NCBI RefSeq assembly: GCF_011397635.1
Contig: NC_064770.1
Span: 7,774,826 to 7,838,825 of the forward strand
Direction of reading: 5' to 3'
Source: Epinephelus fuscoguttatus
Taxonomy: Eukaryota; Chordata; Actinopteri; Perciformes; Serranidae
Length of the DNA stretch: 64,000 bases
A program made the position numbers and the translations under genes. Each line of letters opens with the position of its first letter. Positions within the stretch are counted from its first letter, which is position 1. The notes beneath the pieces are model-generated. The model did no database searches. It was not told where the DNA came from and saw only the letters and a list, made by a program, of their open reading frames with translations. This document shows, piece after piece, positions 4,184-49,976 of this stretch.

Positions 4184-4189
4184 TTTATT
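4184..4189 (-). promoter_or_regulatory. Candidate poly(A) signal of the filament gene
   Basis: AATAAA on the minus strand, about 320 bp beyond the stop codon of the intermediate-filament gene. It is the first AATAAA I find downstream in that direction. This is positional inference only. Confidence 0.4.
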
Positions 4190-4509: not shown

Positions 4510-4656
4510 TTAGAGACGTATAATGTCATCAAGGCCATCAGATTCTGCACTCGTGACCCCGACACCTGTTGTCAGCCATCGCTGGACAAGAGGAGACACA
4601 GCTGCAAAAGAAGGATTGTTTTTTATTTTTATATACTGCAATACAACAACATATAC

Positions 4657-4705
<49 letters not shown>

Positions 4706-7700
4706 CATTCTAATATTTCTAAGCAACTCGTTGTTTTTCCCAATACTGTATATTAGCACTTTCATATTTTACACAGCCACCAGAGGTCACTGTCAGATCA
4801 TCATAAAACGCATATCATCATAAACGCATTTAAACAGTAAATACTTTCATTTCTTGTTGGGGACAGTCCCTGTGGGCTTAATTCCCTCAAATCTGGCACA
4901 AACATCTACTTGGACTGAAAGATGAACTGATTAAATTTTGGTGGTCAAAGGTCTTGGTCACTGTGAAAGACATTTTTGGCCGTAACTCAAGAATTCATAT
5001 GCTAATTATCACAAAACTTCAGACAAATGTCTAATACAATATAATGATGAAATGATGACATTTCATATCCAAAAGGTCAATGGTCAGTTTCACTGTGACA
5101 TCATAATGTTCTGAAAAAAATCATTGAAAAAAACTTTCCTGGCCCATTATTTGACACTGCCCATCTTGATTCTGTGTAACATTCATATTTGGAGCAGTGT
5201 TTGCTGGTCAGGTATGGATATTAACCACAAGTTGACTGGTTGTCGGAGGCATACAACTGCTAGGTGGTAATTCTAGTTTTTAAATTCCCAGTAAAACAGA
5301 AGTTTTAGTGTCTTTAGCTTCTGTACTGTGACGCATTACAATTTACAGGTACAAGAGGGATATAAATCAAATGCTTTACAATTGATTGGACAGCTCAGAG
5401 TGAGCAGGTTTCGAGTTTAGTGGAGTTGCAGTGGACTGGTGGCTCCATATGCACCCCCCCGGACATTACATTAGGAGGAGGATGAGGTAGAATGTTACCT
5501 ACCTACCTACCTACCTACCTAGATGTGGGTCAAAATGGTAACGTAAAGGCCCTTTGGTTCTGACCAAGTTAGCCCAGCAGCATAAGCTGCCATGGCGATC
5601 TAGCGAGGTTAAAAGAGAGCCACCTGTGTGAAACGTAAAACCCTGTCTTTAAGCGCAACATACCATGCTCACCCACTAATATCCCTTTGTGATATATCCC
5701 TTTGTGCTCACCTGTAACCTGTTGTTGCTGGGACCGCTGAGCTTGTCTTTGTCGGTCCTGACTTCTTTCTCTCCCCGCTGCAGAGATTGACAGTGCCGCC
5801 ATCTTGCAAACACTGATTCTGTCCTTGTTGCCTCCGGCTCCGCTACCAGTGCTCCTGACTGGCCGGTCACTGCTGCTGATGACCCTTCCCCCCGTGCTGT
5901 TGGTCCTCCCTGACCCAGAGGAGCTGCTGATCCTTCCACCAGCTTGGCTGCTAATTCTGTCACTGCTATCTGCACTACTAAGTCGAGACCCGCTCCCAGG
6001 GCTACTAATGCAATTCGCACCAGCTGTTGAACTGTTCAGCCACCCGCCACTACCCAAACTCATTCTCCCTCCAGGGCTCGGGGCTCTATTGTTGCTGGTC
6101 GTTCCCCCTCCGCCTGATCGCCCAGTACTTCCCGAAGTGCTCCTACGTCCACTAGCTGAGCTGTATACGGGCTTCCGTTCACCACTGCCAGTGCTGGTGA
6201 ATCTCCCAGAACTGCTAATCCTGTTGCTCCCAGATGAGCTGCTAAGCTTGTTGCCACTACTAGAGCTACTTAACCTACCACCACTACCTACACTGCTACT
6301 GCGCCGAACAACACCACCTGAGCTGAGCCTGCCACCACTACCAGTACTATTAAGTCTTGGTCCACTACTTGTATAGCTACTTGGTGGACTGATGACTTGG
6401 CCATAATTGGTGCTGACACCAACCTTGCCTGCATTACTGGCACTACTCAGACGTCCAGTACTCCCACCATAAACTCTCCACTCACCACTGTCTCCACTGC
6501 CAAACCTCCGTGGTCTTAATACTCCTGGTGGGCTTGTTGCCAGTTGCATAGCCACTGATGGGCTTTCTTTGCTGTCGACATTGGATAAGCTATTGCTGCC
6601 AGCCACATTGCTCACATATCCAGTACTCCCACCATAGACTCTCCACTCTCCACTTCTGCTGCTGAATCTCCCTGTTCCTGGGGGGCTTGTTGGCAGGTGC
6701 ATGGCTGTTGACTGGCTTTCTCTGCTTTCTGTGTTGGGTAAAATATCACTTCCATCCATGTTAATGTTACGTTTAAGACTGCCGCTGTTAACCATCCATT
6801 CTCCACTTCCTCCACTACCAAACTTCTTTGTGTCTGGTGGGCTTGTTGCACAGAACACTGACGGGCTTTCCTCTCTCCCTGTTCTGGGCAAGCTGTTCTT
6901 ACGTCCAAGACTGCCTCCATAAACCATCCACCCTTCACTCCCTCTACAGCTGAATCTCCCTGTTTCTTGTGGGCTTGTTGCAAGGTTTGTAGCCACTGAT
7001 GGGCCTTCCACTTTTCCTTCACTGGGTAAGCCAGGGCTACTATCCAGGCTGCTTTTACGTCCAAAACCGCCACTATAAACCACCCACTCCCCACTTCCTC
7101 TGCCGAACCTCCCTGTTTCTGGGTGACTTGTTGCAGGTAGAGTTGCTCCTGATGGACTTTCTTCACTTCCTGTTCTGGGTAAGTTTGTGCTTGTACGTCC
7201 TAGACTGCCACCATAAACCAACCAATCTCCACTGCCACACCTAAATCTGTCCCCTGCATCAACTGTATTACCACCAGCTGTACCTGATGAATTAGCAGCC
7301 ATGACACCAAAACAAGCTGCCACATCATTACCCATACCACTACCTCCTAATTTGGTAGCCACACCACTAAAGGTTGATCCTCCATTGGCAGGGACACCTC
7401 CAAAGCTAGATGACCTAACAAACAGTATTTCACCTTTAGCTGGCTTGTTGGTATTTAGCCAGTCATTGTTTTTCTGTCCCCTAACTACACTGTCAGTACT
7501 GGAAATCTCTTTCAAGCCTTCTGAGCCATACCTGCCTCCTGGACTGCCACTTGAATTCTGGACATCCTTGTTATGTGCAATGCCTCCTGTAACTTTGTAC
7601 CCGTCATTGGGAGTTCTTGCTTGACTTACACCTTTCTGATACAGGCCTCTAAAACCAAGCTGTTCCTCTTTGTCTGCTATGATACTACGGCCACCTGGAC

Positions 7701-10700
7701 TCCCAAACTTAAAGCTTCCATGACTGCTGCTCAGCTGAGGGTTGATCCCTTGACTGGTTGGTTCATTCACAGTACCTCTACTTCCTTTGTTGCCATCAAA
7801 TGATCCAAAACACAAACTGTTTCCATCTTCCACTGAAATGCTGACTTCTCTGTTTCTGTCCTCTCCTGGCAAAGCTTGATCACTGCTAAATGACAGAGAC
7901 TGGCCTTCCTCTTTCGTCGAGAGAATGTATTTCTCAACTGGTCTCACGTGTGTATTTGCCTCAGTTAGACTCAGACATACATCCTCGTCTTCTTCCTCAC
8001 CATTTGGACTCAGACACCCTTTAGCATCAACTGGACTCAAACATTTGTCTGAGTCATTTTGGCTGAGAAACATTTCTGGGTCATTTGGACTCAGGAGATA
8101 ATCAGGACTTCTAACATGTTCTTCCAGATCAACTGGGCAAAATACTTGATCTGTCATGCGCATTAACACCTCTGTCTCAATTGGGCTCAGGCATGTTTCT
8201 GAACTCAAGCATAGAAATGGCTTTGGCGTTGGGCTCATATATACATCAGCTTCACTTGGACTCAGGACCTCTTCTTGGTCAGAGGAACTCAAAGCCACAC
8301 CAGAATCTGTAAGACTTACAGACTTTTTTAACTTTGTGGTACTCTGCAATACTTCTTGACCTGCTATATAAACCATGTCATTGTCTGACTCAGGACGCTC
8401 CACCTTTACCTCATTGGTATCATGGAAACCATTGATAGCCTTCTCTTTGTTTATTTCTACTTCCACTTTCTTCAAAATCTCTGTACTTGTAGTTTTATTT
8501 TCAAGGTTCTCTTTGCTGTCTGGGCTCCCAAATGAGGCAGCGGGAATTCCAGACCCTGTACCTGCATCCTTCATGACTTTGTTGTGTTCGCTATTGGATG
8601 CTTTGAACAATGTAAATTCTACTTCCTCTACTCCCTTATTTTCTTCACTTCCTGCGTCCTTGTCATTGATCAGGGTCAACTCACCAGAGACCTTATCCTG
8701 AGCTTCCTCACACCTATGAATGTGAGATCCAGAGACAATTGATGCTGTAACAGCAACTCCCTCTGCATCCCTGACAGCCCCTGCTGGAGTCTCCAAACTC
8801 AAAGACACAACTTGTGCAGGATCCTGGTCCTTAGCCTGTATGGAGCCCTCAGTGCAATTCATTTTAGCTGAAATTACAATTTCTGTCTCTTTCTTCACTT
8901 CTGCAGCAGTGTCTTTGGCAGGATCCATTGTGGCTGTATGTGTTACAAAATGTAGTTCTTGATTCACTTCTGGTTCTGTACATAGAATTGTTTTGGTGAT
9001 CTCTGTCTGAATGTTTGTTCCTGTTTTGTTATCCTTCCATCCAGCTTCTACAGTAGTTTGTTCAGATGTAAATGTTTCTGTTTTTTCTTGAACAGCAGTA
9101 CTCCCAGCAGGCTGTGTGTAAGGAACTACTGTGGTGATTCCTTGTACAGTATTAATCTCTGGTATAGAAGCCTTGACAACAGCTCCCTCACCAGATACCT
9201 TGTTCTGAGCCTCCTCTGACCTAATACTTTGAGAATGAGAGACAACAGGTGCTGTAATGGCAACTTCCTCTGCATCCCTGACAACTTCTGCTGGAGTCTC
9301 CAAACTCAAAGACACAACTTGTGCAGGATCCTGGCTCTTAGCCTGGATGGAGCCCTCAGTGCAGTCCACGTGAGCTGAGATCACAGATTCTGTCACTGTC
9401 TTTACGTCTGCAGCAGTTTCCTTGGTGGGGTCAGTTGCAACTGTATGTGTAACACTATCTGGTCCTTGCTGTACTTCTGGTTCTGCACAAAGAATGGTTT
9501 TAGTAATCTCTGTTTGATCATTGGTCCCGGTTTTATTAGCCTGCAATCCAGCTTTGGTAGTAGTTTGTTCAGATGTACCTTCTATTATTTCCTGAACAGC
9601 ATTCATGGTAGGCTGTGTGTCAGGAACCACTGAAGTGATACCTTGTGTAGTATTAACCTCTGGTTTAGAGGCCTTGACAACAGCTCCCTCATCAGAGACC
9701 TTATCCTGAGCCTCCTCAGATCTAAAAATGTGAGATCCAGAGACAGTGGATGCTTTGACTTCAACTTCCACTGCATCCCCGACAGGCTCTGCTGGAGGGT
9801 CCAAACTCAAAGAAGCAACCTGTGTAGGATCCTGATTCTTAGCCTGGTTGGAGCCCCCAGTGCAGTCTATTTGAGCTGAGATCACAGTTTCTGTCACTTT
9901 TTTCACTTCTGAAGCAGTTTCTTTAGTGGGATCAGTTGTGGCTGTATGTGTTACAAAATCTCGTCCTTGCTTCACTTCTGGAATGGTTTTGGCTATCTCT
10001 GTTTGAACATTTGTGGCTGTTTTATTAGCCTGCAAACCAGCTTCTGTGGTCTCTGTTATTTCCTGAATAAAAGAGCTCGCATTCATGGCAGGTTTTGTGT
10101 CAGGAACTATTGTGGTGATACCTTGTGCAGTATTACTGTCTGGTTTAGAAGCCTTGACAACAGCTCCCTCACCAGAGACTTTGTCCTGAGCCTCCTCTGA
10201 CCTAATACCTTGAGATCCAGAGACAACAGGTGCTGTAGTAGTAACTTCCTCTGCATCCATGACAGCCTCTACTAGTGGATCCGAACTCAAAGACTCAACC
10301 TGTGCAGGATCCTGGTTGTTTGCCTGGTTGGAGCCCTCAGTGCAAACCATTTGAGCTGAGATTGTGGTTTTGGTCTCTTTCTTTACTTCAGCAGTTTCTT
10401 TGGTGGGATCAGTTGTGGCTGTTTGAACTTTGGTTGCTGTTTTACTTGATGCTGTAATAGCAGCTTCCTCTGCATTCTTTACAACTTCAGCTGAAACCTC
10501 CAAACTCAAAGACACAGTTTGTGCAGGATCCTGGTTCTTAGCCTGATTGGAGCCCCCAGTGCAGTCCTTTTGAGCTGTGATCATAGTTTGTGTCTCTGTC
10601 TTTATCTCTGCAGCAGTTTCCTTATTGCGATCAGTTGTGGTCAAATGTCTTGCAATGTGTGGTCCTTGCTTTACTTGTGGTTGTGCATAAAGAATGGCTT

Positions 10701-13700
10701 TGGTGATCTCTGTTTGAATGTGGGTGTCTGTTTTATTAGCCTGCAAACCAGCTTCTGCAGTAACTTGTTTGGAAGTATAAGTTTCAGGTTTGGCCTGAAG
10801 AGCGGCACTCTTGGCAGATTTTGTGTCAGGAACCAACGTGTTGATTACTTGTGCAGCATTTATCTGTGATTTAGAAGCCTGAAGAACAGCTCCCTTGTCT
10901 AAGCTTTGGCTAACCTTAGTACTAACAGTTGGTGAGTTCTTCAGATTACAGTCTTTAGAGTGGACTTTAGCCTCCACAGGGTTGCTCTGCCTGTTGACTG
11001 TCTCTTTAATGGTCATTGATTCTCCCCAAGTCTCTTCTGTTGTCTGCTTTTCAAGCTTGTGGAATGAGCCAGTTAGATTTGAAGTATTAATTGATGTTAC
11101 TGGTGAGTTCTTTGAATGATTTGAGAGTGGATTAACTACAGGTGTTTGTCTGACAGTGTGGACGTAGCCTCTAGAGACAGTCTGAACCCCCATCATCCGG
11201 TGATTTCCCCCGTGAACAGGGACTGTTTTGTTCGCTGAGATGTTTCTCCTGTGGGCAGAGGGGCTGGTTGTAGCATTGAAAGGTGTGAAGTTAGCTGCAG
11301 AGTTTGAGTGAAGACTTGAGAGCCTGTGAACAAAAGGACATATAAGTGCAAGAAGGAGAAGAACAGAGCTGAAAGGCACAAAGTTAGATAATAAAGCAAC
11401 ACCAACAAAGGGAAACCTTGTTAACAGTTCACTTTATGAGTCCTGTTTCAGTAATGTCTTGGGAATTTTCCAATGAAATTTGGTGCCACGTACTGGACAC
11501 CAGAGAAAGACCATGCATTGTGTAGTAAGTACCGAATCATTTATGAGAATTTAGAATTATATATGTTGTTGAATTTCTTTAAAAGAACTTTAAACCCATG
11601 TAAAAACAAACAAAAAAAAAGTGTGAGCACACAGACATTAAATATATTATTCATACCAATCTCCATATAATATTAATGTTGTCAGTTTGCTGGTTTAACC
11701 TGAGGGATAATTATCTTACAAAATGTAAAATACAAAAAATAAAAACATGGGTGTTTTGCAACATGCTTAGCAAATTAAATGAAATTTTCATTATTGTTAT
11801 CTTATACCCCTGTTGGCTCAGTCCATCCAGCAGCCTCCTGTAGTCCTCTATCTCAGTCTCCAGCCTGTTTTTGACATCTAGCAGGGTCTGATAGTCTGCA
11901 GCCTGCTGAGCTGTGGCCTGCAGCACTGAGTCCAGATCTCTGCACAGATCATCTGCTCTCTGCTGCAGGGCCTGCAGCTGCTGGACGACGGACTCTGTTT
12001 GCTCCAGACCAGAGGCCTCCAATCCCATGTTCTACACAGACAAATGCATACAATGCTTCATGTTAGGGTTGTGTAGATTGTGGTCCTTCAAGGGAAATCT
12101 CACCACCTTTAAAGGGACAGTGCACCCAAAAATGAAAATTCAGCCATTATCGCCTCACCCATATGTCGAGGGAGGCTCAGGTGAAGTTTTAGAGTCCTCA
12201 CATCCCTTGCAGAGATCCAAGGGGAGAGGGGGTAGCAGCACAACTCCACCTAATGGAGGCTTACAGCGCCCCAGATTCAAACGTCCAAAAACACGTAATT
12301 GGAACCACAAAATATCTCCATTCTGCTTCAAGTGTCCTGAAGCCCCAACATAAAAAGTTGTTTGGAAAAATGTTTGGAAAAAATTCGAACTCTGTTTTTA
12401 GCCTCATTGTAGCCTGTAGCTCTATCTGCCTCTCTGTGCACCGCGCTCACGTCCGTGAGACATGGGCACCGCGTTCATGTGTGTTCACGTACTTTCACTG
12501 CAAGCCCGCACACATGAGTGCGGCGTACACAGAAGCAGCTAGAGCTACAGGCTACACTGAGGCTAAAAACAGAGTTCAAATGACATTTTTCCAAACAACT
12601 TTTTATGTCGGGGCTTCAGGACACTTGGATCACTATGGACGAGCAGTATGGAGATATTCTGTGGTTTCAAATATGTGTTTTTGGACATTTGAATGTGGGG
12701 CGCCGTAAGCCTCCATTAGGTGGAGTTGTGCTGCTACCCCCTCTCCCCTTGGATCTCCGGAAGTGATGTGAGAACTCTAAAACGTCACCTGAGCCTCCAT
12801 CAGCGTATGGGTGAGTAGATAATGACTGAATTTTCTTTTTTGGATGCACTATCCCTTTAATGCAGATGTCCAATCAGTGTTGATGGTAAATGTAGTTAAT
12901 AGAAGCAATAAATTCCTCAGTGTTTGCATATCGACCGAGAAAGCGGAGTTCTTCTGCTCATATAGTTGTGCTGGCAATGCTCGAATGTACCAGGATGCAT
13001 TGTGCGCAGGCATAGTTGCAGTGTATAGCCACCCTAACCTATGCTATTATCTCTTGGCCAAAATAGCGCAAGGGGTAACAAAGATACTTGTCTAACCCAA
13101 TGTGTAATTTAGTTTCTCAAGTAAAGACTCACTGTGAGCAGGGTTTGAACCTGCGCGGGTAAACCCCATTTGATTTCAAGTCCAACGCCTTAACCACTCA
13201 GCCATCACAGCTCACATACCTGGAACTTTCAGTCGGTTAACAGAGATTTCCACATACAGAGTTTGGAGTTAATAAAATCTATATAAGTTGATCAGCAGTG
13301 GTGGTACAAGTACTGATATTCTTTTACTTAAAGCTCCAGTAGGCAACATTGTTTTGGTATAATTGAGTCAAAATTTTATAATATCCTCTAAGCATAATGT
13401 AAATCAAGTGGTCTGAGACAAACAATAGGTTTCTGCACCTCACCACGGCTCTGTGTTCAGCCTCTAAAGAATAAGTATCGTGCCGATGTGCATCAACCAA
13501 TCAAAGGTCAGCTCAGGCCACTGCATTCCTATTGGCTGTTCTACTGCATATGCGTGTTCCCATGCCGCCGGCAGAAGGGGAGAGCAAGTGGCAATGGCGA
13601 ACAGTGCACCAGGTAAAATAGCTATTCCAGCATTGGCTACAACTGCCTACACAGCTAAACAACCCAAAAAAAGGCAGACAGAACTCGGTTCCCTGGAGCC

Positions 13701-16700
13701 CTGGAGGGAGTGGAGGGTGAGGTGGGACCAGGCCCGGCCGGAGGGCGCGAGGGTTGGCCGTGGGAGCGGTACCGAGGGCTCTCTGCAGAGAGGGAGAGCC
13801 GAGCCTCAGGGGTATTTGCGGGGCCGCGAGGGAGGGATGGGGCGGGCTGCTGCACAGTGAGGGAGAGCCGAGGCTCGGGAATAAGTGCGGGGGCCGCGAG
13901 GGAGGGATGGGGCGGGCTGCTGCGTGGTGAGGGAGAGCCGAGGCTCCCAAAGAGGGAGAAATAAATTGTAGATATAGTTATTTAGACCTGCAACTGTACA
14001 AAATTAAATTATTGATATGTCAGCTTAGAATTCTAAATAGTAATAATGTACTTTCAGATATCTAGAATTGCATTTTAGATATCTGAAATGCATTTGTAAC
14101 TAATGAAATTATATTCATACTAGTAACAATTACATTTGAGATACATTTCCTTAGATATTAAAAAAAAAAAAAAAAAGAATTTCCACAGGTCAAAAATGTC
14201 ATTGTAGATATATTCGGGTAATGTATATCCAGAATTAGTATTTAATTTTGGCTACATATCTGAAATGAGTAATTTAAATGTCAATCAGTGACTTTAATCA
14301 TCAGAAATCCACATATCCAAATGGTTTATTGATATGGCAAACATATCAGAAATGAAGTTTTTGATATCTGAATTGAAAAATTACATTTCCACTAGGCACA
14401 TTTCTTTTTTTAACGTGAAAAATCAACTGTCAATATTTGTTTTTACTAGTGAAAAGGAATAACTGATATCTATAATCAAATAAAAGATATCTCTAAATCA
14501 GATTTGACTAGTCAAAATGTTATTTCTACATATGAAAACATATTTGTAACATGCCAAACTTTTTACAGATCTCTTAAATTAACATTTCAACAAAAAATGT
14601 CATTTTGACATTTTTAGATATAGTTTCCACTTGTTAAAAACTAAATCGCTATTAGTTAACCTTGTTGATTAAATGTTAAAAAGGGCTTGCCATAGTACCA
14701 CACTTGAAAATGTTTCAATGTTTCATTCATTCATTCATTCATCTTCTAACCGCTTCATCCTCTTGAGGGTCGCGGGGGGGCTGGAGCCTATCCCAGCTGA
14801 CATCGGGCGAGAGGCAGGGTACACCCTGGACAGGTCGCCAGACTATCGCAGGGCTGACACATAGAGACAAACAACCATTCACACTCACATTCACACCTAC
14901 AGACAATTTAGAGTTATCAATTAACCTAGTCCCCAATCTGCATGTCTTTGGACTGTGGGAGGAAGCCGGAGTGCCCGGAGAGAACCCATGCTGACACGGG
15001 GAGAACATGCAAACTCCGCACAGAAGGGCTCCCACGCCCAGGATCGAACCAGCAACCCTCTTGCTGTGAGGTGAGAGTGCTAACCACCACACCAATCTTT
15101 ATTGGTAAAAATCCTGAATGTAAGACCTTACTTAAGTAAAAGTAGGCTATTATCAATTAAGTTTACTTTAAGTACTTAACCTAAATGTATCCATTGTGCA
15201 ACTTTGAATGAATAAATCATAGTCACCGTGTCCCATTTCTTCCATTATGGAACTGTCCGGAGTTCATCTCCCTAACATTTTGGACTTTGTCCTCATAATT
15301 TAAGATGCTATATCAAAGGTGCTGTGAGCAGGGTTTGAACCTATATGTGGGGAAACACCACTAGAGTCCTAATCCAACTCCTTAATCACTTGGCCATCCC
15401 CAGCAATGAAAGGAACAGAGAAGTCCGCCATTGTGTCACTGGATTCAGGTTACTTTTACAAATAAATGCTACAGCATGTAATTCAGTGTTACTGATTGTA
15501 ATTTGATCTGATTATTATCAGCTTAAGTGTTTACTGTTTTACTCTCCTTGAACAATATCAGAGCTGGATTATCTTACTGCCGGAGCAAACATTTCCTACT
15601 GCTGGTGCTTCACATTGAAACATTTGTGAAACAAATGTGAGGATGCTTTTATTTTAAAGCAAACACAATGCATTTATCACTGAGGTTAGCTCTGGTCACT
15701 TTGATATTGTTATGTCTTGGCCCTAGAAGTAACAGTGGTTATGGTGAACTGACCCAAGAGCAGTTCCTCACCAATTGCTCTTGCAGTTTAGGTTTTGTAT
15801 TGACTGACAGTATCGCTTTCTCTCTACTACGGCTCCATACTCACTTATTTACTGTTGCTAAGCTATGCATGGAAAATCACTGTAGAGAGAGGTTTACCAA
15901 AATGGTAAGTTCTCCCTGTTTTTACTCTAAGGCTAGTTTTATCTTACCATAGCCTGCAGATGTGTCAGCTCTTCTTCCAGACTTGCTGCTGTTCTCCTCA
16001 GGTCCTCCAGCTCAGCCTGGACAACCTCAGAACCAGCTGGAGGGTTAAAGGTCACCTCCGGAGAACTCAACATGGACACCTGAACACAACGCAGCTGACA
16101 TTAAAAATCTACTAAAACGAGAACTGTGGTCACAGAGCATTATTTTAAAATAAGGGCGTGATGTAGATGTTTGTGTACCTGTGTGTTGAACAAGTACTCG
16201 TTCTGGTTCTTGCCGAGCAGTGTCACACTCGTCTGTCTCAGGTCGTCCAGCTGCTGAAGAAGGTCTGATGACCCAGCAGCTTGCATCTCCACGGTGACGC
16301 CCCCTGAAGCCTGGGCTAGGAGACCCTGCATGTCCTGGACAGGTAGATAGGGAACATGACGTAGACATTTATTTGAATAATCCAGGCAATTTTTATTGAA
16401 TTACCTGTTGGTGTTGTATCCGCAGCTCCATCAGCTGTTGTGTTTGATCTTCCAGCAGAGTCCGGAGCTCTGGCAGCGTGTGGACCTTCAGCACCTCCTC
16501 CAGCAGCCTGAGGTCGCTAACGTCCGTCTCCACACAACCACGACGCTCACGCTCCTTCTCACACCTGTTTACACAGCAGGGGGTTGGCGAGATATGTCTA
16601 TATGTGCTATGTATGTATGTGGAAGGTGAGTAGATCTACCTGGCCTTGAAGTCGAAGATAGTGAGCTCTGCACTGAGGAGCTGCAGCTTTACTTGAGCCT

Positions 16701-16730
16701 GGGACGAGAGACATTCACTGATCTGTAAGT

Positions 16731-16767
<37 letters not shown>

Positions 16768-19700
16768 CCTGAATGAGGTTTGACCTGTTTTTTTTTAACA
16801 AAGCTTAATTAGTCACACCACTTTTGGTACAACTTGTTAAAAGTTATACTGCTACTTTAGCAGTAGTAACAGCAGTAGTAGTTGTAGTAGTCAGAGGCTT
16901 AAGTTGACTTGGACTCAAGTCAGATTTGAGTTATGAATCAGAGGTTGACTTTGACTTAGATCCCAGTGACTTGTGCCCTCACTTGGACTTTGGCCTTTTT
17001 AATTAGAATGAACCGATATGCCCTGTAAGTTATGGAAAATGTTTGCAGCTAATCGAATTTTTATTGTTACTGACACAAACTTGAAAATTCAAATGGCATT
17101 CAATTTGGTGAAGGGCACCCAATGACTTGTTTTGGACTTGGACTTGATGTAGGACTTGTTGTTCTTGACTTGGAACTTGTTGATCTTGGTCAAGGTCTTG
17201 CTGGTTTTGACAGGTGTGAAATAGGACTTGGGACCTAACTCAAGGCCTGTTGGTCTTGAGTTGGGATTTGATTTGGGACTTGTTAGCGTAGGTCCTGGAC
17301 TTGGGACTTGATGGACTTGTCTTGGGGCATGTTGGTATTGTCTTGGAACTTAATTTCTTGACTTTGGACTTTTGCCTTGGTCATGACTTGGGTCTTGTTA
17401 GACTTGATGTGGGAGTTGTTTGTCATGACATGGGTCTTGACCCAGGATGTGTGGATCTTGTCTTGGGACTTGACCTAGAACTTATTACTCTTGTCTTGGG
17501 ACGTGTTGGTCTTAACTTGGGTCTTGTTGGTCTTGACAATAGGACTTCTTGGTCTTGGGCTGGGACCTGACTTCAGACCTGCTGGCCGTGAATTGGGACT
17601 TATTGTTCTTGATAAAGATCTTTAGACTTGTTGAACTTGACCTTGGATTTGATAGCCATGACATGAGATTCAGTTATGACTTGACTTTGTCCTCTGGTAG
17701 CAGAAACCATTTAGTCACGGTAGAAACACAGTAAACAGTCATGTAAATGGTGATTGATTTGAAAATATCTGTGCTGGACAGAACTGTAAAAGAGCATGTG
17801 GTGAGTATGTGCTGTGGTGGTTAAAAAAAGGAAAACCCTTTATTGTGTTAATTTTCATACACGTGATATGACAGTGGTGAAAATGGGTCAAGATGACTGA
17901 ATACAAGTAGTTGAATGTGAGTTATTATTGTGATCATGAAGTTACTAGAACAAATTAAATGTCAAGTCAGTCTCAGGCTTGTGGATGAAACCATCTGCAG
18001 AAACAGACTTTCAGAATAACCACAACTCTTTTGAAAGTTCAGAAATAAGTGTGTATTATTAAAATGATCTGTTGTGTTTCCGGGACATGCTGAAGTTCAG
18101 GTTTGATGTCTGACATTTAAATTGGTGACATTTTAGAGTCAGACTTGTCTCAACCTGTCTGACCTTCAAGCAGACGTTCAACTTCCAGACGAGTCAGAAC
18201 CGGTCTGATTTGCACCTCAGTTTGACATCATCTGTTTGCCAGCAGAGCTGCCTCTGGCCTCTATTTGGCCTACGCACAGCCTTTATCTGGCCCTGGTTGG
18301 CATTTAACTGGTTTTTATTTGGTCCTTATATGGGCTTTATCTGGGCTTCATCTGGGCTTTACTGATATTTAGCTGGTCTTTATTTAGCCTCATTGGCATT
18401 TATCTGGTCTTAATTTGTCCTTTATCTGTTTTTATGTGGCATGTAATCGATTGGCCCTTATCTGGTCTGTATTTGGCATTTATATGGTCTTCATTTGGTC
18501 TTTTTTTGCCTTTTTGTGGCCCAAGGACAAAAGTATTTTACTTTTTGTCATCTTTTCTTTTTTCAGGCTGTTGGTTATTGTTGATCATCATAATATCCAT
18601 AGTGTGGTTTGAGTCTGACTGCAGATCTCCTGTTGCACTGTAAATAAATATGAGTAAACCTTTTTTCCCTCTCCTCCTCCTTTAGTTGATGTTTGATCAG
18701 AGAATTTAAATTCTCAGTTGTTCAGAAGTAGAACCATACACTAAAACATTTTTCTCCGTATTTGTAACAGTGTTTTATTTTATTTAATTTTCTTTCTTTA
18801 TTTTTTTATTTGTGTATTTGTTTATATATTTTGTGTTTGGTTTTTTTTTTGTTATTTTATTTGTTTGTTTTATTGAATATTGTTTCATTTTTATTCTTTC
18901 TACTCTATTCAGTCTGGTTTAATGTTATTTTATAATGTATTTATTGTACTTATTCAATCATATTTTATTTTTTATATTACATTTGTTTTTTGCTTTTGTT
19001 CTTTAGGTTTTCATTGAGGTTAATCAAAGAAAGTCATTTAGACAGGATTATTAGTGGTCTCTCTATTTTTTTTTTTAAAATGTTGGTAAGCTCACCTGAT
19101 CATGCAACAGGGACGCTGTCCTCAGGTATCCATTCAGCTGTTTCAGCTCTCTGGGACACCTCCTGTTCAGCTTCTCTTGGATCTGACGCTCCAGCCTCTG
19201 ATTGGTCACTTCAAGATACTGGACCTGTATATCAGAGTTAACAATCAATTGATGAATTGTCAGTTGTGATAACCTAATAGATCCTAATGCTGCTGTGGCG
19301 ATAACAGAACAGTCAAGATGAGTTTTAAAATCCTCATGACAAAATAGATTTTTCATTTTGGACTGCTTCATTTTATTGATTTTTTTTTAGGTCTGAACAA
19401 GTATAAAATAAAATGTAATTCAAATACAAAAATTAGAAAAAGAAATCATGCATTTCCTCTGGAAATTGGCAACTACTTATAAACTCAACACAACTAAGTA
19501 AGCTAAAACAATTTTCAGATCTTTACCTGTCAGGTTTTTTTTTTTTTCCAATATAACAAGTACCAAATTACACAGAACTTAAGGTTCATTTCAAAAGGAT
19601 AAGAATCTGATGGAGAAATATTAAACTAATTTTTAAATGTAGATAATAAATCCCCTTAAGTTTGTTAAAACCCCCAAATACACCCACAATACAGAGGACA

Positions 19701-21641
19701 TCATCCATAGAAAAAGAATGACATTTTATTTTTATGATATGACTCCAGTGTCAATAGTGGTAGTTACAGCCCTGGATATTTCTATAGACCTTTGTGTTAA
19801 AGAGTAAGAATCTTTTTGTTTAATCAGAAACAGCCCCAAAATCACTTTTCTCAAATCCACCAGACCGCATTTAAATAAACTGTAATTTTATCAGTGTTCA
19901 ACAAACTTCATTAAAAGTTGACAAAAATAAAACTCACAAAAGCTGTTTTGGTTTGCCTTTTTTTTTACTGTTCCAACAATCACCCGCTCTAGTTTAGTTG
20001 AAATAAACACTAAATTAAACCACAGGATAGACGTGAAAATATGTTGGCTCTATACATGCTGAAATCACTGTTTATGTAGGTACAATCTGGTGGGTTTGAC
20101 AATATCTATTTCTGGGCTGTTTCTGGGTGACCAAAAAAGGTCTTTATCTGCAAGAGATCCTTTCCAGAGTGTTTAAGGACAGTTAGAATAATATCCTGAG
20201 CCAATCAGTACCAAAAACGAGCACTTTTAGTGGACAAATATTGTGACGGTCCAAAATTGCCCTGAGTGGTTACACTGGAGCCTTTTTTGTGGCAGCTGGC
20301 TGCAGCGGTCTCACTCAGTGCTGGACCAGTTTTAAAGTTGCATTGTTTCCATTAGTCACTAAGACACAAAACATTGGAAAATAGGATCCAGGTTAAAAAA
20401 ACACCAAAGTAACCATTTAATTGACCTTTTATCAGCTTTAGATGTCATGGAATTTTTTCAATACATGCAAAACTCCACTGAAAATTCTGCTATGTTTCTG
20501 TTCTCTTGCTCTTTAAATATAGTTTACAAAGCCACAAGCAAAAGTTTCCACCACATGCATTAGAGAAAAATAAGAGAAATAAGTGGCACACTGTACTCAG
20601 TCAAACTCCAATAAGAAATCTGATGTCTCACTTATAAACATTGCGTACACAGCATCCCATGCAAAAGCTGTGATCTATAAAGACAAACTTGATGGGAGAA
20701 ACTTTGACCCATGCTTACTTTTTGGAGAGGGTAAACACATGGTGAAGTAGAAGCCTGATTGTAGAAACTGTTGAATATTTTCTGGTGTAAGCCATTTCTG
20801 GATTTTGTCTGTATGTACACTTTTATGGATCTTATGGATCCCACATATTATTTTACAAATGAGGCCTGGTTATTTTATGTTTTCTGGCTCTTAAAACTAT
20901 AATTTCGAATCTGTGGGACAGGTAAAAGGAGTAGGAAGGATGCTGTGTGTTCCACCTCATACATCAAAAAATAAAAAGAGGATGTAAAGAAAAAACAAGA
21001 ACTCATACAACAAAACCGGCACCTGTTTAAGGCCATGCAAAACTCCACTAAAAAATCTGACTCTGCACTAAAAATCTCAGTTTAATTTTGAAATTGGTTT
21101 TCCTGCTCCTTACAACATTTATTCATCATTTATAAATCTCAGTTTAATGTTTCTGTGGAGTGAGAAAAGTAAGGAGGTCTTTGTGTGTTTCCATCTCATG
21201 CATCAAAGAATAGACAGTTAATGCAAGTAACTATCAGAAATGGGATATTAAGTGCTGCACTTGTTTCAGTCTATGCAAAACTGCATTGAGAAATCTGCTT
21301 TTTATATTCTCTTGTACTTAAAACATTTCAATCATCACTTATGAATCTTTGTTTCATTTTGGCATTTCTGTGCTGCTACTGGATCAATCTGGAATCTTTT
21401 TTTCCCCACATCATGCATCTCCTACCTGCTGCAGGTATGTGGCCAACCTCCGGTTGAGCTGCTGCAGGTCAAGTTTCTCTCTGGACAAACAGAAGGTCCT
21501 GCTGTTGTCCGTAGCCACAGCTGCAACTGACACATTAGGAGCTGTGCTGTAATGCACCAAAACTCCAGGTCCATGATGACCACGGTAACCCAAACCTGCA
21601 CGGGTCACTCTGTTTGCACGAAGAACCTGCCACGGCGTCAT
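4510..21641 (-). CDS. Type I keratin-like intermediate filament protein with giant repetitive tail
   Basis: Nine minus-strand exons: 21641-21426, 19224-19096, 16722-16640, 16564-16405, 16334-16179, 16079-15948, 12031-11808, 11323-5712 and 4601-4510. All introns are GT-AG and in phase; the sum is 6,804 nt, or 2,267 residues. Head 1-54. The rod, about 55-362, opens with LNRRLATYLQQVQYLE and closes with the helix-termination motif LETEIEDYRRLLDG. VEMQAAGSSDL at the linker before coil 2 is type I keratin-like. Exons 3-7 are 83, 160, 156, 132 and 224 nt, close to type I keratin gene exons. The tail, about 363-2267, has five TEITKTI...QDPAQVVSLSLE units, an Ser-Pro block, six GEWxVYGGS units, a Ser/Gly-rich zone and a basic end. 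The start is the first in-frame ATG after TAA. The likely role is a cytoplasmic filament needing a type II partner (inference). The orthologue is not recognised. Confidence 0.85.
4640..4703. repeat. (TA)n(TG)n microsatellite
   Basis: An (AT)n run passes into about 18 TG units. It lies in intron 8 of the filament gene, about 40 bp beyond the acceptor of its last exon. The open frames through it are repeat artefacts. Confidence 0.9.
4855..5290. repeat. Dispersed repeat with 'ggtcaaaggtc' core, copy 1
   Basis: Shares ordered blocks with 41221-41670: 'gcacaaac.t..acttgga', 'aactgattaaattttggtgg', 'tcaaaggtc' and, at the end, 'ttgactggtt' plus 'ggaggcatacaa'. The two copies have the same strand and block order, so this is an interspersed element of unknown class. 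Confidence 0.6.
5497..5521. repeat. (ACCT)n microsatellite
   Basis: Six tandem ACCT units in intron 8 of the filament gene, just beyond the in-frame TAA that would end a read-through form. Confidence 0.85.
5800..6440 (-). repeat. Tail zone C of the filament protein: Ser/Gly-rich low complexity
   Basis: Within exon 8, about 200 residues consist of degenerate SSGGRLSS / GSGGRLSSGG-type units rich in Ser, Gly and Arg. They resemble the glycine-loop composition of keratin ends but here lie after roughly 1,600 residues of other tail sequence. A basic stretch (SAAGRERSQDRQRQAQRSQ) then leads to the exon 8 donor. Confidence 0.8.
6440..7245 (-). repeat. Tail zone B: six GEWxVYGGS repeats
   Basis: Six tandem units of about 45-55 residues (135-165 bp) in exon 8. 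Each contains a GEW-x-V-Y/N-x-GS-x-GR core (the first reads GDWLVYGGSLGR), then a Ser-rich spacer and an ESPSVA...LATSPPETGRF segment. Cores lie near 7225, 7085, 6930, 6795, 6640 and 6480. Trp and Tyr are kept while the spacers diverge, which suggests selection on the aromatic core. Confidence 0.85.
7955..8295 (-). repeat. Tail acidic Ser-Pro block (CLSP/SPxE motifs)
   Basis: About 110 residues with repeated LSP-hydrophilic-acidic phrases (LSPSEADVYMSP, CLSPIETEV, YLLSPNDPEM, CLSPVDAKG, CLSPNGEEE). They are candidate proline-directed kinase sites, loosely comparable to the KSP repeats of neurofilament tails. The comparison is inference; no homology to neurofilaments is claimed. Confidence 0.75.
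8680..10920 (-). repeat. Tail zone A: five long tandem repeats
   Basis: Five units, each carrying in order a VVPDT-Q/K-P phrase, AGLQANKT, Q-TEI-KTI, TTDPTKETA-EVK, a CTEGS-QAK-QDPAQVVSLSLE phrase, a DAEE phrase and SEEAQDKVSGEGAVVKAS. The QDPAQ cores lie near 8810, 9310, 9810, 10300 and 10517, so three periods are about 0.5 kb and one unit is shortened to about 0.2 kb. The Thr/Lys/Glu-rich composition predicts an extended or disordered tail. Confidence 0.85.
11324..11807. other. Filament gene intron 7
   Basis: Apart from the acceptor's pyrimidine tract (minus strand, just upstream of 11323) and the gtataa donor beside 11808, this AT-rich intron shows no feature. Confidence 0.5.
12109..12860. 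mobile_element. Foldback (palindromic) element, copy 1
   Basis: Begins TTAAAGGGACAGTGCACCC and ends TGCACTATCCCTTTAA. Beyond the ends, the left arm (aaaatgaaaattcagcc, then cctcacatcccttgcagaga and cctgaagccccaacat) is met in reverse order and complement by the right arm. Only a short centre is unpaired, so nearly all of the 750 bp could fold on itself. Ends at TTAA are compatible with piggyBac-like mobilisation (inference). A second copy is at 55965-56751. No transposase is encoded. Confidence 0.85.
13131..13211 (-). tRNA. tRNA-Ser (anticodon UGA)
   Basis: An 81-nt class II tRNA on the minus strand. The acceptor arm GCTGTGA pairs with TCACAGT (first pair G-U). The A box is TGGCTGAGTGGTTAAGG, the anticodon loop is CTTGAAA giving UGA, there is a long variable arm GGGGTTTACCC, and the B box is GGTTCAAACCC. 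One anticodon-stem mismatch and the lack of a TTTT run close downstream leave doubt about activity. It sits in intron 6 of the filament gene, on the same strand. Confidence 0.75.
13335..13965. repeat. CpG-rich insertion with tandem repeats
   Basis: A GC- and CpG-rich stretch in an otherwise AT-rich intron. It opens with 'aaagctccagtaggcaaca', contains two inverted CCAAT-like sites near 13500-13540 and a short ATG frame followed by CAG|gtaaaa. From about 13775 it passes into two to three tandem units of about 70 bp built on gggagagccgaggctc and gccgcgagggagggatgggg. It could be the 5' end of a DNA transposon; the class is not determined. Confidence 0.6.
13970..14665. repeat. AT-rich degenerate array of ATATCTGAAAT palindromic motifs
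   Basis: The motif gatatctgaaatg and its variants (agatatct, catatcagaaatg, tgatatctgaattg) recurs roughly every 40-80 bp, mixed with 'actagt' and 'aattacattt' words, for almost 700 bp. No coding capacity. Confidence 0.6.
14723..15095 (-). mobile_element. tRNA-headed retroelement with (TGAA)n tail
   Basis: Read on the minus strand it starts ggtgtggtggttagcactct, has a Pol III B box-like ggttcgatcctgg and the phrases 'ttgcatgttctccccgtg' and 'cctcccacagtccaaagac', and ends in (GAATGAATG)n. This is a familiar high-copy teleost retroelement layout (tRNA-like head, LINE-type simple tail). The family name is left open. Confidence 0.75.
15321..15404 (-). pseudogene. tRNA-Ser-derived relic
   Basis: 84 nt on the minus strand aligning with the tRNA-Ser at 13131: GATGGCCAAGTGATTAAGG A box, GGTTCAAACCCTGCTCACAGC T arm and 3' end, and a long variable arm. 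The acceptor arm no longer pairs well, the anticodon stem is broken (TTGGA against TCTAG), and the loop would read AGG, which does not fit a serine body. It looks like a dead copy. Confidence 0.65.
15668..15952 (+). other. Small secreted-like open frame, doubtful
   Basis: The frame starts MHLSLRLALVTLILLCLG, which looks like a signal peptide, and has four cysteines before CRERFTKM, where a good donor (ATG|gtaagt, 15903) occurs. It lies antisense in intron 6 of the filament gene. I found no continuing exon and recognise no family, so it may be chance. Confidence 0.2.
16733..16764. repeat. (GA)n microsatellite
   Basis: About 15 GA units just upstream (in the minus sense) of the acceptor of filament-gene exon 3. 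Confidence 0.9.
16885..17690. repeat. Degenerate 'gacttgttggtcttgactt' minisatellite
   Basis: About 0.8 kb built from ctt-gg-gactt and ttggtcttgac words with a variable period, in intron 2 of the filament gene. The long plus-strand open frames at 17301-17734 (rich in L, D, V and G) are artefacts of this repeat. Confidence 0.8.
18235..18500. repeat. Degenerate 'tttatctggccttatttgg' minisatellite
   Basis: About fifteen imperfect units of 15-20 bp (tttatctgg, cttatttggc, tttatatggtc and similar) in tandem. This is a second, unrelated minisatellite in intron 2. Confidence 0.75.
18760..19000. repeat. T-rich low-complexity stretch
   Basis: Runs of ttttattt, tgtttg and ttattttatt words with no coding or element signature, in intron 2 of the filament gene. 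Confidence 0.6.
19380..21330. repeat. Intron 1 cassette repeats ('atgcaaaactccactgagaaatctgct')
   Basis: Related cassettes start near 20464, 21033 and 21263, with others at 22370 and 24960 outside the gene. Each has a 'catgcaaaactccact' phrase, then 'aaatctg' and usually a 'tctcttg' word and an 'aaatctcagtttaattttgg'-like phrase. Copies are diverged and unevenly spaced. The rest of the intron is AT-rich without features. Confidence 0.55.
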
Positions 21642-23219
21642 CTCACCACTCACTTATGTTTACTTTTTCACATCTGGTCATCACATATGGACTCATCTAT
21701 CCTCCCTAACAAGCACTCTTCCTTTAAAGCGTCCTTTTCTGCAGAACTGAAGATGTATGTGCAGGTTTTTCTGCACTACTCTACTCCTGCACTGCCAAAT
21801 CTCTTCTTTCAGCAGCTGTCTAAACTCCCTGCTGTGAATGTCAAGCCCTCAGGTGTCAAAGAGGATGTTTCTATCACAGGTGTGTCAGGACTCTAAGGAG
21901 CTCAGGTTTAATCTGCATTAACCTTTAAATCGTGAAATTACAAACAGGTTACGGCAGGGCAGGCCCTACCCTTTTAGAGTTATTTAGTGGAAAGCTCACA
22001 GCACACGTGAATCAAAAATTACAGTCAGGTTTTCACTTGCTCTGCAGATGTTCTGGATCAGCGAGCTCTGTAACCTTAAGGCCAAATGACAACTGTTCTT
22101 AATATATTATATTTTATATGCAGGTCTAATACTGCCAATGAGTCATCTGCAATAAAAAAATTATAAAACAGTTAAACTTTACAAGTGGAAAGGTTTTTTG
22201 TGTTTCATGCATGACCGAAGAAAAAGATGCAAATCAAAAGAAGTGGAACCACACAAATCTTCATTAAGAAACTGCAACTTTAGAATTTTTTTTACAATTA
22301 TAACTCTTCACTAACAAACCTTAGTTTAATTTTGGAATCATAAAACAAACCCTGTGCTCAGTCAATGCAAAACACCACTGAGAAATCTGCTACTTTTATT
22401 TTGTCTTGTTTTTCAAATACACATTAAATAACAATGTTATTTTTGAATTTGAAGACACAGATGGGAGTAGAGAGCGTGTGTTGTGCATCAGCACATTTTG
22501 CAAGAAAGTGGCTCATTTTTGCAAACACACTTTTTTTTAGCAATGTCAGAAAGTTACAAAGTATATTTACTCTGTACTTTTGCAATTTTGAAGTATTTGT
22601 ACTTGAGTACTTCTACTCCACTACATCTCAGAGGGAAATATTGCAGTTTTTACTCCATTACATGTTTCTAAGTATGACAAGGCCTGCACGATTGCCAGTT
22701 GCCAGACACAGCTGATGTGAGGTGATACCAAGGTGCATCAAAGCTGTCGTGATGATATGTGGTGGCCCAAAACTTTATTAAATAGAAACAAATAGATCCA
22801 CACACCAAGTAGCTCCTGTTAAAATGTTTTTAATGCTGTGTAACATTCTGAGCCTGCAGCTCTTCCTCAGACTTCTGATAAACCACAGAAAGATAGTAAT
22901 AGTAAAGAATACATTATACACTTATGGAAGAAAATATTGGTATACAAATAAAGGAGAAGACCAGTAGGCATATATGTACAAATCATGTATCCCCCACAAG
23001 TTAAGTGCTTCATAAAGGTCTATAGCTAAATAGGCCACAATATATTAATATATACTAAATGCATCTAATAAACACACCTGATATGTCACAACTGCTTCAA
23101 ATCATTGGTCACAATGCAGCAGGAAAATACATTTCAGTATTAAGCATAAACATAAATTCAAGCCACATAAATATATGAATAAAGGCACATGAAGAAAATC
23201 AGTTTATAGTATATACATA
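21642..23219. other. Intergenic region upstream of the filament gene
   Basis: This spacer holds the 5' flank of the minus-strand filament gene, where I find no convincing TATA box or CpG island. It also holds one cassette copy near 22370 and an AAGTA-type repeat at 22561-22676. Otherwise it is AT-rich. Confidence 0.5.
22561..22676 (+). repeat. AAGTA-rich dispersed repeat
   Basis: Contains 'agtatttgtacttgagtact', 'tctactccactacatctca' and 'gagggaaatatt'. Nearly the same text occurs at 1575-1620. Confidence 0.75.
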
Positions 23220-23221
23220 CA

Positions 23222-24480
23222 CAGATCAGCCACAACATTAAAACATTGATCATCTTGTTACAATGCAATGTTCTGCTGGGAAACCTTAGGTCCTGGCATT
23301 CATGTGGATGCCACTTGACACGCCCCACCCACCCAACACAGCATTACAGACCAAGTACCCCACTCTCCATGGCAACAGCGCTCCCCAATGGCAATGGTCC
23401 CCCAACAGAACAGCACAACATGCCACACCATAAAAACTGCTTAGAATGGCCCGAGGAACATGACAAAGAGCTCAAGATGTCAACCTGTGTTCAAAATTCC
23501 CCAGATACCTATCTGATCAAGCATCCGTGAGATGTGCTGGTACCCCACCTCACAACCCACAGGACTCAAAGGGTTCTCTGCCAACGTCCTGGTGCCAGAC
23601 ACCACAGGACAACCCCAGAGGTCCTGTGTTGACGCCTTGACAGGTCAGAGCCATGTCTGGTCCAAGGAGGTCCCAATGTGGACCTGGGGTACATCTGGGG
23701 TACCAGCACATCCCATGAATCCTTGATCAGACTGGGAACTGGGAACTTGGAGGCCAGGTCAATGCCTTGAGCTATTTGTCATGATCCTCAGGCCATTCCT
23801 GAGTAGTTTTTGCTGTGTGGCATGACGCATTGCCCTGCTGAAGGGCCGCTGCCATCTGGAGTACTGTAACATGACACTGCCTCCACCAAAAGATGTTATT
23901 CTATCGGTGCAGCAATCAGCAAATTTGGACTCATTGCTGAACATAACGTTCCTCTACATGTTCAGGTTCCAGTGCACGTGCTGCAGACACCACCACCGCC
24001 TGACGGTGAAGGGCAGTCATGGCAATCCTCCTGGCAGCCCTATGAGACCGGAAATTGGCTGCATGCAGTCCGTTCTAGATTGTCTGGGCAGAGAGCCGTC
24101 AGCCATATCGTCCTGCAAACTTTGACTGCAAACCTGTAGAAGATTGGCTATGGTTCCTAAGTGCTGACAGGATGAGGAAACAGTCTTCTTGGGGTGCTTT
24201 CTTCTTGGGACGCCCATTTCGCGGCCTGTCTCTGAAATCCCCCGTTATATGGAACTTGGCCTTCAGTTTGTAGATGGTGCTAGGGCTCACTCCAAATAAT
24301 GCCGCAACTTGGTTTTGCGGAACACCAGCTTGAAGTTGCCCTATCGCACGGGCCCTATCCAGATCAGTCAAACCTGGCATGCCGATTCTTGGAGCACCAA
24401 CTGACCACTGTAGAAGGGCCCATGCTCACAGGCTGGTGACAATCAGGTGCCAGTCAGGCACCTGGGGGTACCAGAAGCTC
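23222..24480 (-). mobile_element. Degenerate Tc1-like transposon
   Basis: The left end has acacagatcagccacaacattaaaac, a typical Tc1-type terminus. On the minus strand 24380-24099 encodes an N-terminal helix-turn-helix region (LDRARAIGQLQAGVPQNQVA, later FRDRPRNGRPKKK). Stops and frameshifts follow through 23700, where TAKTTQEWPEDHDK-like text marks the catalytic part. The same PEEHDKELK phrase is also found on the plus strand at about 23455, so a 3' coding segment exists in inverted duplicate. No right terminus is recognisable. The element is dead. Confidence 0.7.

Positions 24481-24830: not shown

Positions 24831-49976
<25,146 letters not shown>

Follow-up and report, generated by a model that had tools for sequence, protein, structure and literature searches.

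A type I keratin-class gene of Epinephelus fuscoguttatus with a predicted tail of about 1,900 residues

Giant tails of intermediate filament proteins have so far been described for the neurofilament/type VI branch, in proteins of nerve and muscle. Type VI rods are reported to be encoded by three exons, with two intron positions in common with neurofilament genes, and tanabin, which belongs to this class, has exons of 804, 125, 65, 4848 and 71 bp with the rod in three of them (PMC2075511). Divergent relatives of the type I keratins have also been reported. These include thread keratin gamma, which is given as the sister of type I and occurs in teleosts (PMC10005773), and KRT222, the neighbour of KRT24 at one end of the type I cluster of mammals (PMC6662840); a zebrafish survey sets both thread keratin gamma and krt222 apart from type I (PMC6778804). 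In the zebrafish periderm keratin is linked to actin by plakins (PMC7535935), so that a keratin carrying its own linking arm would be unusual. Here we describe a gene from a 64,000-nucleotide stretch of the Epinephelus fuscoguttatus genome (contig NC_064770.1, positions 7,774,826 to 7,838,825; hereafter the window, to which all coordinates refer unless a contig is named), whose predicted product joins a type I keratin-class rod to a tail of 1,905 residues. In searches of an open-access library we found no description of a keratin with a tail of such size. Annotation databases quite possibly carry a fish orthologue of this gene under a generic name.

The gene lies on the minus strand, as do all of its features given below, and was rebuilt from the sequence as nine exons of 216, 129, 83, 160, 156, 132, 224, 5612 and 92 nt. 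Each of the eight introns has GT-AG borders, the phases are consistent and the spliced frame is open throughout, giving a predicted protein of 2,267 residues (∼240 kDa) before the stop, which reproduces the nine in-phase exons and the product length of a preliminary description of this DNA. Exon 1 (21426..21641; donor CAG/GTAGGA) starts at the first ATG of its stop-to-stop frame, at 21641, and encodes a 54-residue head and the start of coil 1A. It is followed by exon 2 (19096..19224) with the remaining coil 1A, linker L1 and the start of coil 1B, by exons 3 (16640..16722) and 4 (16405..16564), both within coil 1B, by exon 5 (16179..16334) with linker L12 and the start of coil 2, by exon 6 (15948..16079), which continues coil 2 and holds a proline-containing break (SSPEVTFNPPAG), and by exon 7 (11808..12031), which completes coil 2 and encodes the helix termination motif. 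The tail exon, exon 8 (5712..11323), has the acceptor TTTTGTTCACAG/G and lies within an unbroken frame of 1,954 codons without a stop, well above chance expectation, and exon 9 (4510..4601) supplies the final 30 codons and the stop, the C-terminus being DGLDDIIRL. The tail comprises residues 363-2267 and is 6.2 times as long as the rod, in agreement with the earlier estimate of about six times; as also noted there, it comes mostly from one 5.6-kb exon. A candidate polyadenylation signal (AATAAA, 4184..4189) begins 321 nt past the stop and a candidate core promoter element (TATAAA) is found at 22113..22118, both being consensus matches only.

By exon pattern and by tree, the rod is of the type I keratin class. 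The Pfam Filament profile matches residues 55-362 nearly over its full length (profile positions 2-309 of 313, E 5.9e-44). From the residue preceding EK up to LLDG, the rod has 309 residues, compared with 307-309 in the intact paralogues of the same genome (308 in seven of the ten); it is acidic (pI 4.7) and its end motif is intact. Six PDB sequences match it at E<=0.001, five of them K14 or K10 and one vimentin, and the top three are type I keratins. When the genome (1.05 Gb in 26 contigs, the window being G000:C19:7774826-7838825) was searched with the rod at E<=0.001, matches were found at 15 places, of which seven were its own exons and the other eight fell in loci whose exons follow the type I pattern. 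The rod is 30-34% identical to the seven type I rows with which it was aligned.

The exon pattern was compared with that of L022-L034, 13 type I loci from this genome, spliced by a protein-to-DNA alignment script that, when tried on the window gene, found every one of the seven rod exons and misplaced only the last end, by one base. The series 83, 157, 162 or 165, and 126 nt was exact in 10 of these loci and partial in L025 and L034, and the alignment of L027 was broken up. This last locus (G000:C19:7735500-7740500, minus strand) is a type I gene of the cluster whose spliced alignment falls apart in coil 2, and it is perhaps a damaged copy or a failure of the script. The window gene shows the series 83, 160, 156, 132 and 224 nt with type I phases: its exon 3 has the 83 nt of the paralogues' series, exon 4 has 160 nt for 157, exon 5 has 156 nt for 162-165, exon 6 has 132 nt for 126 and exon 7 has 224 nt for about 221, exons 5 and 6 together making 288 nt, the same sum as 162 and 126. 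This differs from the type II/III series of 61, 96, 162 or 165, and 126 nt, which was found in seven resolved loci (L035-L038, L039, L050 and L053). The stretch from the residue before EK to the 83-nt exon measures 186 nt in the window gene, a length shared by eight of the 12 paralogues, the remaining four having 183 nt; the window gene splits it into 57 and 129 nt by an extra intron in coil 1A, and the script found no such intron in the 12 paralogues. In exon 7, LLDG is reached after 210 nt, as in 10 of the 12 paralogues. A phase 2 donor lies 5-14 nt past LLDG in 10 of the 12 (flagged by the script in six and read from the printed sequence in four), and it lies 14 nt past LLDG in the window gene. 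According to the exon series, the phases and the position of this donor, the rod and the starting point of the tail correspond to a type I keratin gene.

Three rod trees, of 23, 28 and 27 rows, place the rod in the same class. Eleven type I rows were used, L027 and L034 being dropped because their spliced rods are incomplete and L025 being kept; of the lamin-like loci L040, L041, L049 and L052 only the first two were included, as outgroup, and of L001-L008 only L002, L004, L007 and L008. The KRT222 row (L054), which covers 30% of the columns, was used in the 28-row tree only. The window rod grouped with the 11 type I rows in the 23-row tree (support 100/100) and fell in the type I-like group in the 28- and 27-row trees (100/100 in both), where it was found inside a set of eight type I genes with supports of 96/99 and 97/99, respectively. 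The remaining three type I rows, L023, L032 and L033, are presumably K18-like. The branch of the window rod, 2.2 changes per site, is the longest among the rods examined and its composition is unusual, and because of both its exact place within type I is unsure. In approximately unbiased (AU) tests, whose p values are uncorrected for the number of tests, grouping with the type II rows was rejected (p 0.0008), as was grouping with the type III/IV rows (p 0.0007), among which no row is known to be nestin or synemin. In the 27-row set, p was 0.030 for a position outside the other 11 type I genes and 0.044 for one outside these genes, L051 and phakinin together. The Filament match, the exon series and the full tree support bear out the type I keratin-class rod of the preliminary description. 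Its further claim that the rod stands outside the known long-tailed families agrees with the exon plan, which is not the type VI one, and with the rejection of the type III/IV grouping. Thus, we give next to no credence to the proposal that the gene encodes a long-tailed type VI protein of the nestin/tanabin/synemin line: the giant penultimate exon and tiny last exon are indeed as in tanabin (PMC2075511), but the rod is spread over seven exons at type I positions and not over three, and the AU result just given argues in the same direction.

A different proposal is that the window gene corresponds in fish to one of the divergent type I-like genes already known, namely thread keratin gamma, phakinin or KRT222. 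The first of these is favoured by its reported position as sister of type I and its presence in teleosts (PMC10005773), and the second by the AU tests, which retained a grouping with phakinin (p 0.106 in the 28-row set and 0.174 in the 27-row set). KRT222 came into question as a gene flanking the type I cluster in mammals, and its row is the closest in identity to the window rod (40% over just 95 columns, 28-row set). We nevertheless regard this proposal as improbable, since better candidates for these genes are located elsewhere in the genome. The human KRT222 query, which like the phakinin query is approximate, matched best at C3:14626784-14626996 (75% over 71 residues) and also matched C3:14634610-14634867 (55% over 86 residues), while the window locus appeared only at E 0.12. 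Human KRT222 is 30% identical to the window rod, within its range for the 11 type I rods (29-42%), the alignment of the KRT222 tail with the window tail was no better than that of shuffled sequences (113 of 300 scored as high), and grouping with KRT222 was rejected (p 0.02) on a row that spans 30% of the columns. The KRT222 orthologue itself (L054/L055, G000:C3:14626784-14634867, minus strand) has a tail strongly alike to the human one and is situated ∼40 kb from the type I gene L022. In the case of phakinin, L048, on another contig (C15), is 51% identical to the query over 168 residues, compared with 27% over 287 residues for the window gene. The phakinin orthologue (G000:C15:42611000-42616000, minus strand) has aligned coil-2 exons of 162 and 126 nt, as in type I genes. 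Even with its own gene on that contig, phakinin is not rejected by the AU tests as a sister of the window gene. Finally, L051/L056 (G000:C6:35399825-35405349, minus strand) encodes a complete type I-like rod that is basal to the type I rods, and L051 is a candidate, as yet unproven, for thread keratin gamma. Within 17 kb no open reading frame (ORF) of at least 150 residues was found on the strand of L051, and no long tail exon was seen; its grouping with the window rod was rejected marginally in the 27-row set (p 0.035).

The tail is built largely from repeats and regions of opposite charge. Four tandem A repeats (A1-A4, residues 511-1248, 8680..10893) are 160-169 residues long, except A1, which has 242 residues and contains an internal duplication, and the segment around them (residues 501-1280) carries a net charge of -48. 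They are followed by an acidic region with LSP motifs, recognised by eye, that are repeated along residues 1281-1560 (7744..8583, net charge -27), by six B repeats of 44-54 residues with a core resembling SGEWxVYGGSxGR (B1-B6, residues 1724-2023, 6355..7254) and by a basic Ser/Gly/Arg-rich end of exon 8 (about residues 2011-2238, 5712..6393) with a net charge of +23. Pfam gave nothing significant over exon 8, a weak CN_hydrolase listing (E 0.073) being below the cut-off of that family, and no PDB entry matched the tail up to E 0.1. Genome searches with residues 368-2000 (E<=0.001) and residues 2159-2267 (E<=1), in which only the best candidates were scored, returned the gene itself only, so that it is single-copy as far as searched. 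Scans for the tail pattern in viral (14 stretches) and prokaryotic (33 stretches) contigs gave pattern matches and no confirmed relative, as expected there. Downstream of the rod in 12 type I paralogues, sense ORFs reach at most 146 residues within 1.1-1.5 kb; a long exon may lie farther away. AlphaFold modelled repeat A3 with a mean pLDDT of 32, which is consistent with disorder, although the prediction was made from a shallow alignment of four rows.

The repeats differ from one another mostly in the manner of coding sequence, and exon 8 is for this reason probably translated. Nei-Gojobori estimates, which on such short units are suggestive only, gave dN/dS values of 0.44-0.73 for all six pairs of A repeats and of 0.27-0.65 for 13 of the 15 pairs of B repeats, one further pair giving 1.03 and one not being computable. 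Changes among A2-A4 numbered 73, 73 and 119 at codon positions 1, 2 and 3, respectively. These values also bear on the suggestion that the locus is a pseudogene undergoing decay, or else a recent peculiarity confined to this species. The very fast evolution of the rod and its unusual composition would fit such an origin, to which we attribute a small chance, because all splice sites and 2,267 codons remain intact despite about 2.2 changes per site and because the repeat units mostly have dN/dS below 1.

Taken together, these features are compatible with a fast-evolving member of the type I lineage which has a giant 5.6-kb tail exon and may serve as a minor keratin-filament subunit with a projecting tail that spaces or bridges filaments, a proposal to which we give an even chance. 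The tail exon would have reached this length in part through tandem duplications within it. Coil 2B and the conserved end of the acidic rod would be mainly responsible for pairing with a type II keratin, which would let the protein enter keratin filaments as one of their minor subunits; that the end motif and coil 2B are intact in this acidic rod (crude coil-2B heptad score of 0.71, inside the paralogue range of 0.69-0.80) suggests both the pairing and the entry. The disordered tail would then stand off the filament as a side arm, beginning with an acidic repeat spacer, continuing with the acidic LSP region, possibly phosphorylated, and ending in the basic Ser/Gly/Arg-rich stretch, which may stick to neighbouring acidic filaments or to other surfaces. 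A charge running from -48 and -27 to +23 would be well suited to such an arm, with its acidic part as a spacer and its basic tip able to bind other filaments. In this way the protein would hold keratin filaments apart or bridge them, a function proposed for nestin and synemin on other filaments. The preliminary description had likewise suggested a possible filament-linking or surface-projecting role.

Several observations weigh against this proposal, in addition to the limits of the dN/dS and disorder estimates mentioned above. The most important concerns the rod. Four prolines are present outside its linkers, at residues 174, 255, 261 and 262, and none in 10 type I paralogues (L025, whose spliced alignment holds a 1-nt exon, being also excluded from this count). 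Numbered from 0, rod positions 41-51 and 160-164 hold all prolines of the 10 paralogues, while those of the window rod are at positions 41, 119, 200, 206 and 207, that is, residues 96, 174, 255, 261 and 262. Moreover, the crude heptad score of coil 1B is 0.56, compared with 0.69-0.81 in 11 paralogues. The four extra prolines and the weak coil 1B may block the formation of normal dimers, and it is chiefly this proline-broken rod that makes filament entry doubtful, as the protein may dimerise without entering filaments. Together with the long branch, these irregularities do not sustain the earlier characterisation of the rod as ordinary. It is conceivable, if rather unlikely, that the protein is made as modelled and that its kinked rod no longer enters filaments, the product being a soluble or junction-bound scaffold in which the rod only dimerises. 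The prolines, the coil-1B score, the branch length and the 54-residue head favour such a scaffold; the full length of the rod, its preserved end motif and a coil 2B scoring like those of the paralogues speak against it. Another point concerns the join between rod and tail, as the exon 7 donor (GGG/GTATAA) is, by eye, the weakest-looking of the eight. This donor, and the methionines found early in exon 8 (residues 410 and 411), could be explained if exon 8 belonged to a separate transcript and the keratin part ended in a short tail. We consider this arrangement quite improbable because the position and phase of the exon 7 donor are those of type I genes, the acceptor is good-looking and of matching phase, intron 7 is only 484 nt long, the frame of exon 8 opens just about 37 codons before the acceptor and skipping the exon would shift the frame. 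Lastly, the bridging function of the preferred reading, that of a minor filament subunit with a projecting tail, is inferred from the charge pattern and from analogy alone.

With regard to the genomic surroundings, the window gene sits at the edge of a type I cluster, whose nearest gene lies about 30 kb away on the same strand. The window also holds an FCS zinc finger (32240-32632, plus strand) and an MBT repeat (46446-46841, plus strand), and we take this stretch (about 32240-46841, plus strand) to be one MBTD1-like gene. In the Asian seabass, krt13 and mbtd1 have been placed on one unitig (PMC10413685). Between the FCS zinc-finger and MBT stretches there is a transposase frame of 317 residues without a stop (33524-34474, plus strand) with HTH_Tnp_Tc3_2 and DDE_3 domains, and a fragment of a transposase-type helix-turn-helix (24102-24425, minus strand) is located upstream of the keratin gene. 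A scan of the whole window for RNA genes (Rfam at gathering thresholds, and ARAGORN) gave a single tRNA/Rfam call, a tRNA-Ser with the anticodon TGA (13130-13211, minus strand) in intron 6, which may be a tRNA-derived repeat, since a decayed similar stretch can be recognised by eye near 15400-15320.

The presence of the giant-tail plan of the type VI branch on a keratin rod would represent an independent origin. It is possible, at somewhat less than even probability in our judgement and by analogy with nestin, that the type I lineage independently made a nestin-like giant-tail protein, a keratin-class cross-linker (∼240 kDa) in which the rod is kinked and the tail combines an acidic repeat spacer with a basic Ser/Gly/Arg-rich tip. 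In the epithelium of fish it would bridge keratin filaments with one another or with the cell cortex. If so, keratin networks could carry built-in cross-bridges of their own, a job otherwise done by separate linkers such as plakins, and a rod with four extra prolines would be a clear test case for joining, or failing to join, a filament.

Several known proteins resemble the one described here in part. The type VI proteins (nestin, tanabin, transitin and synemin) share with it a long tail with repeated motifs, and tanabin also shares a giant penultimate exon followed by a tiny last one (4848 and 71 bp, compared with 5612 and 92 nt). However, the window rod spans seven exons at type I positions, unlike the three-exon type VI rods, and its A and B repeats are, by eye, unlike the type VI heptad (LQVEHGD) or 11-residue repeats reported in PMC2075511, so that we take the common arrangement of the last two exons as convergence. 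KRT222 and phakinin (BFSP2) are, like the window gene, divergent rods of the type I lineage, and both have their genes elsewhere in this genome; thread keratin gamma (zgc:136930 in the zebrafish), which was compared by description only, is likewise reported as a divergent type I-like filament gene of fish. With the type I keratins of the same genome the window gene shares rod length, end motif, exon plan and phases, the acidic rod, the cluster neighbourhood and the tree position, and it differs from them in its extra coil 1A intron, its coil prolines, its low identity and a tail of 1,905 residues where a short one is usual.

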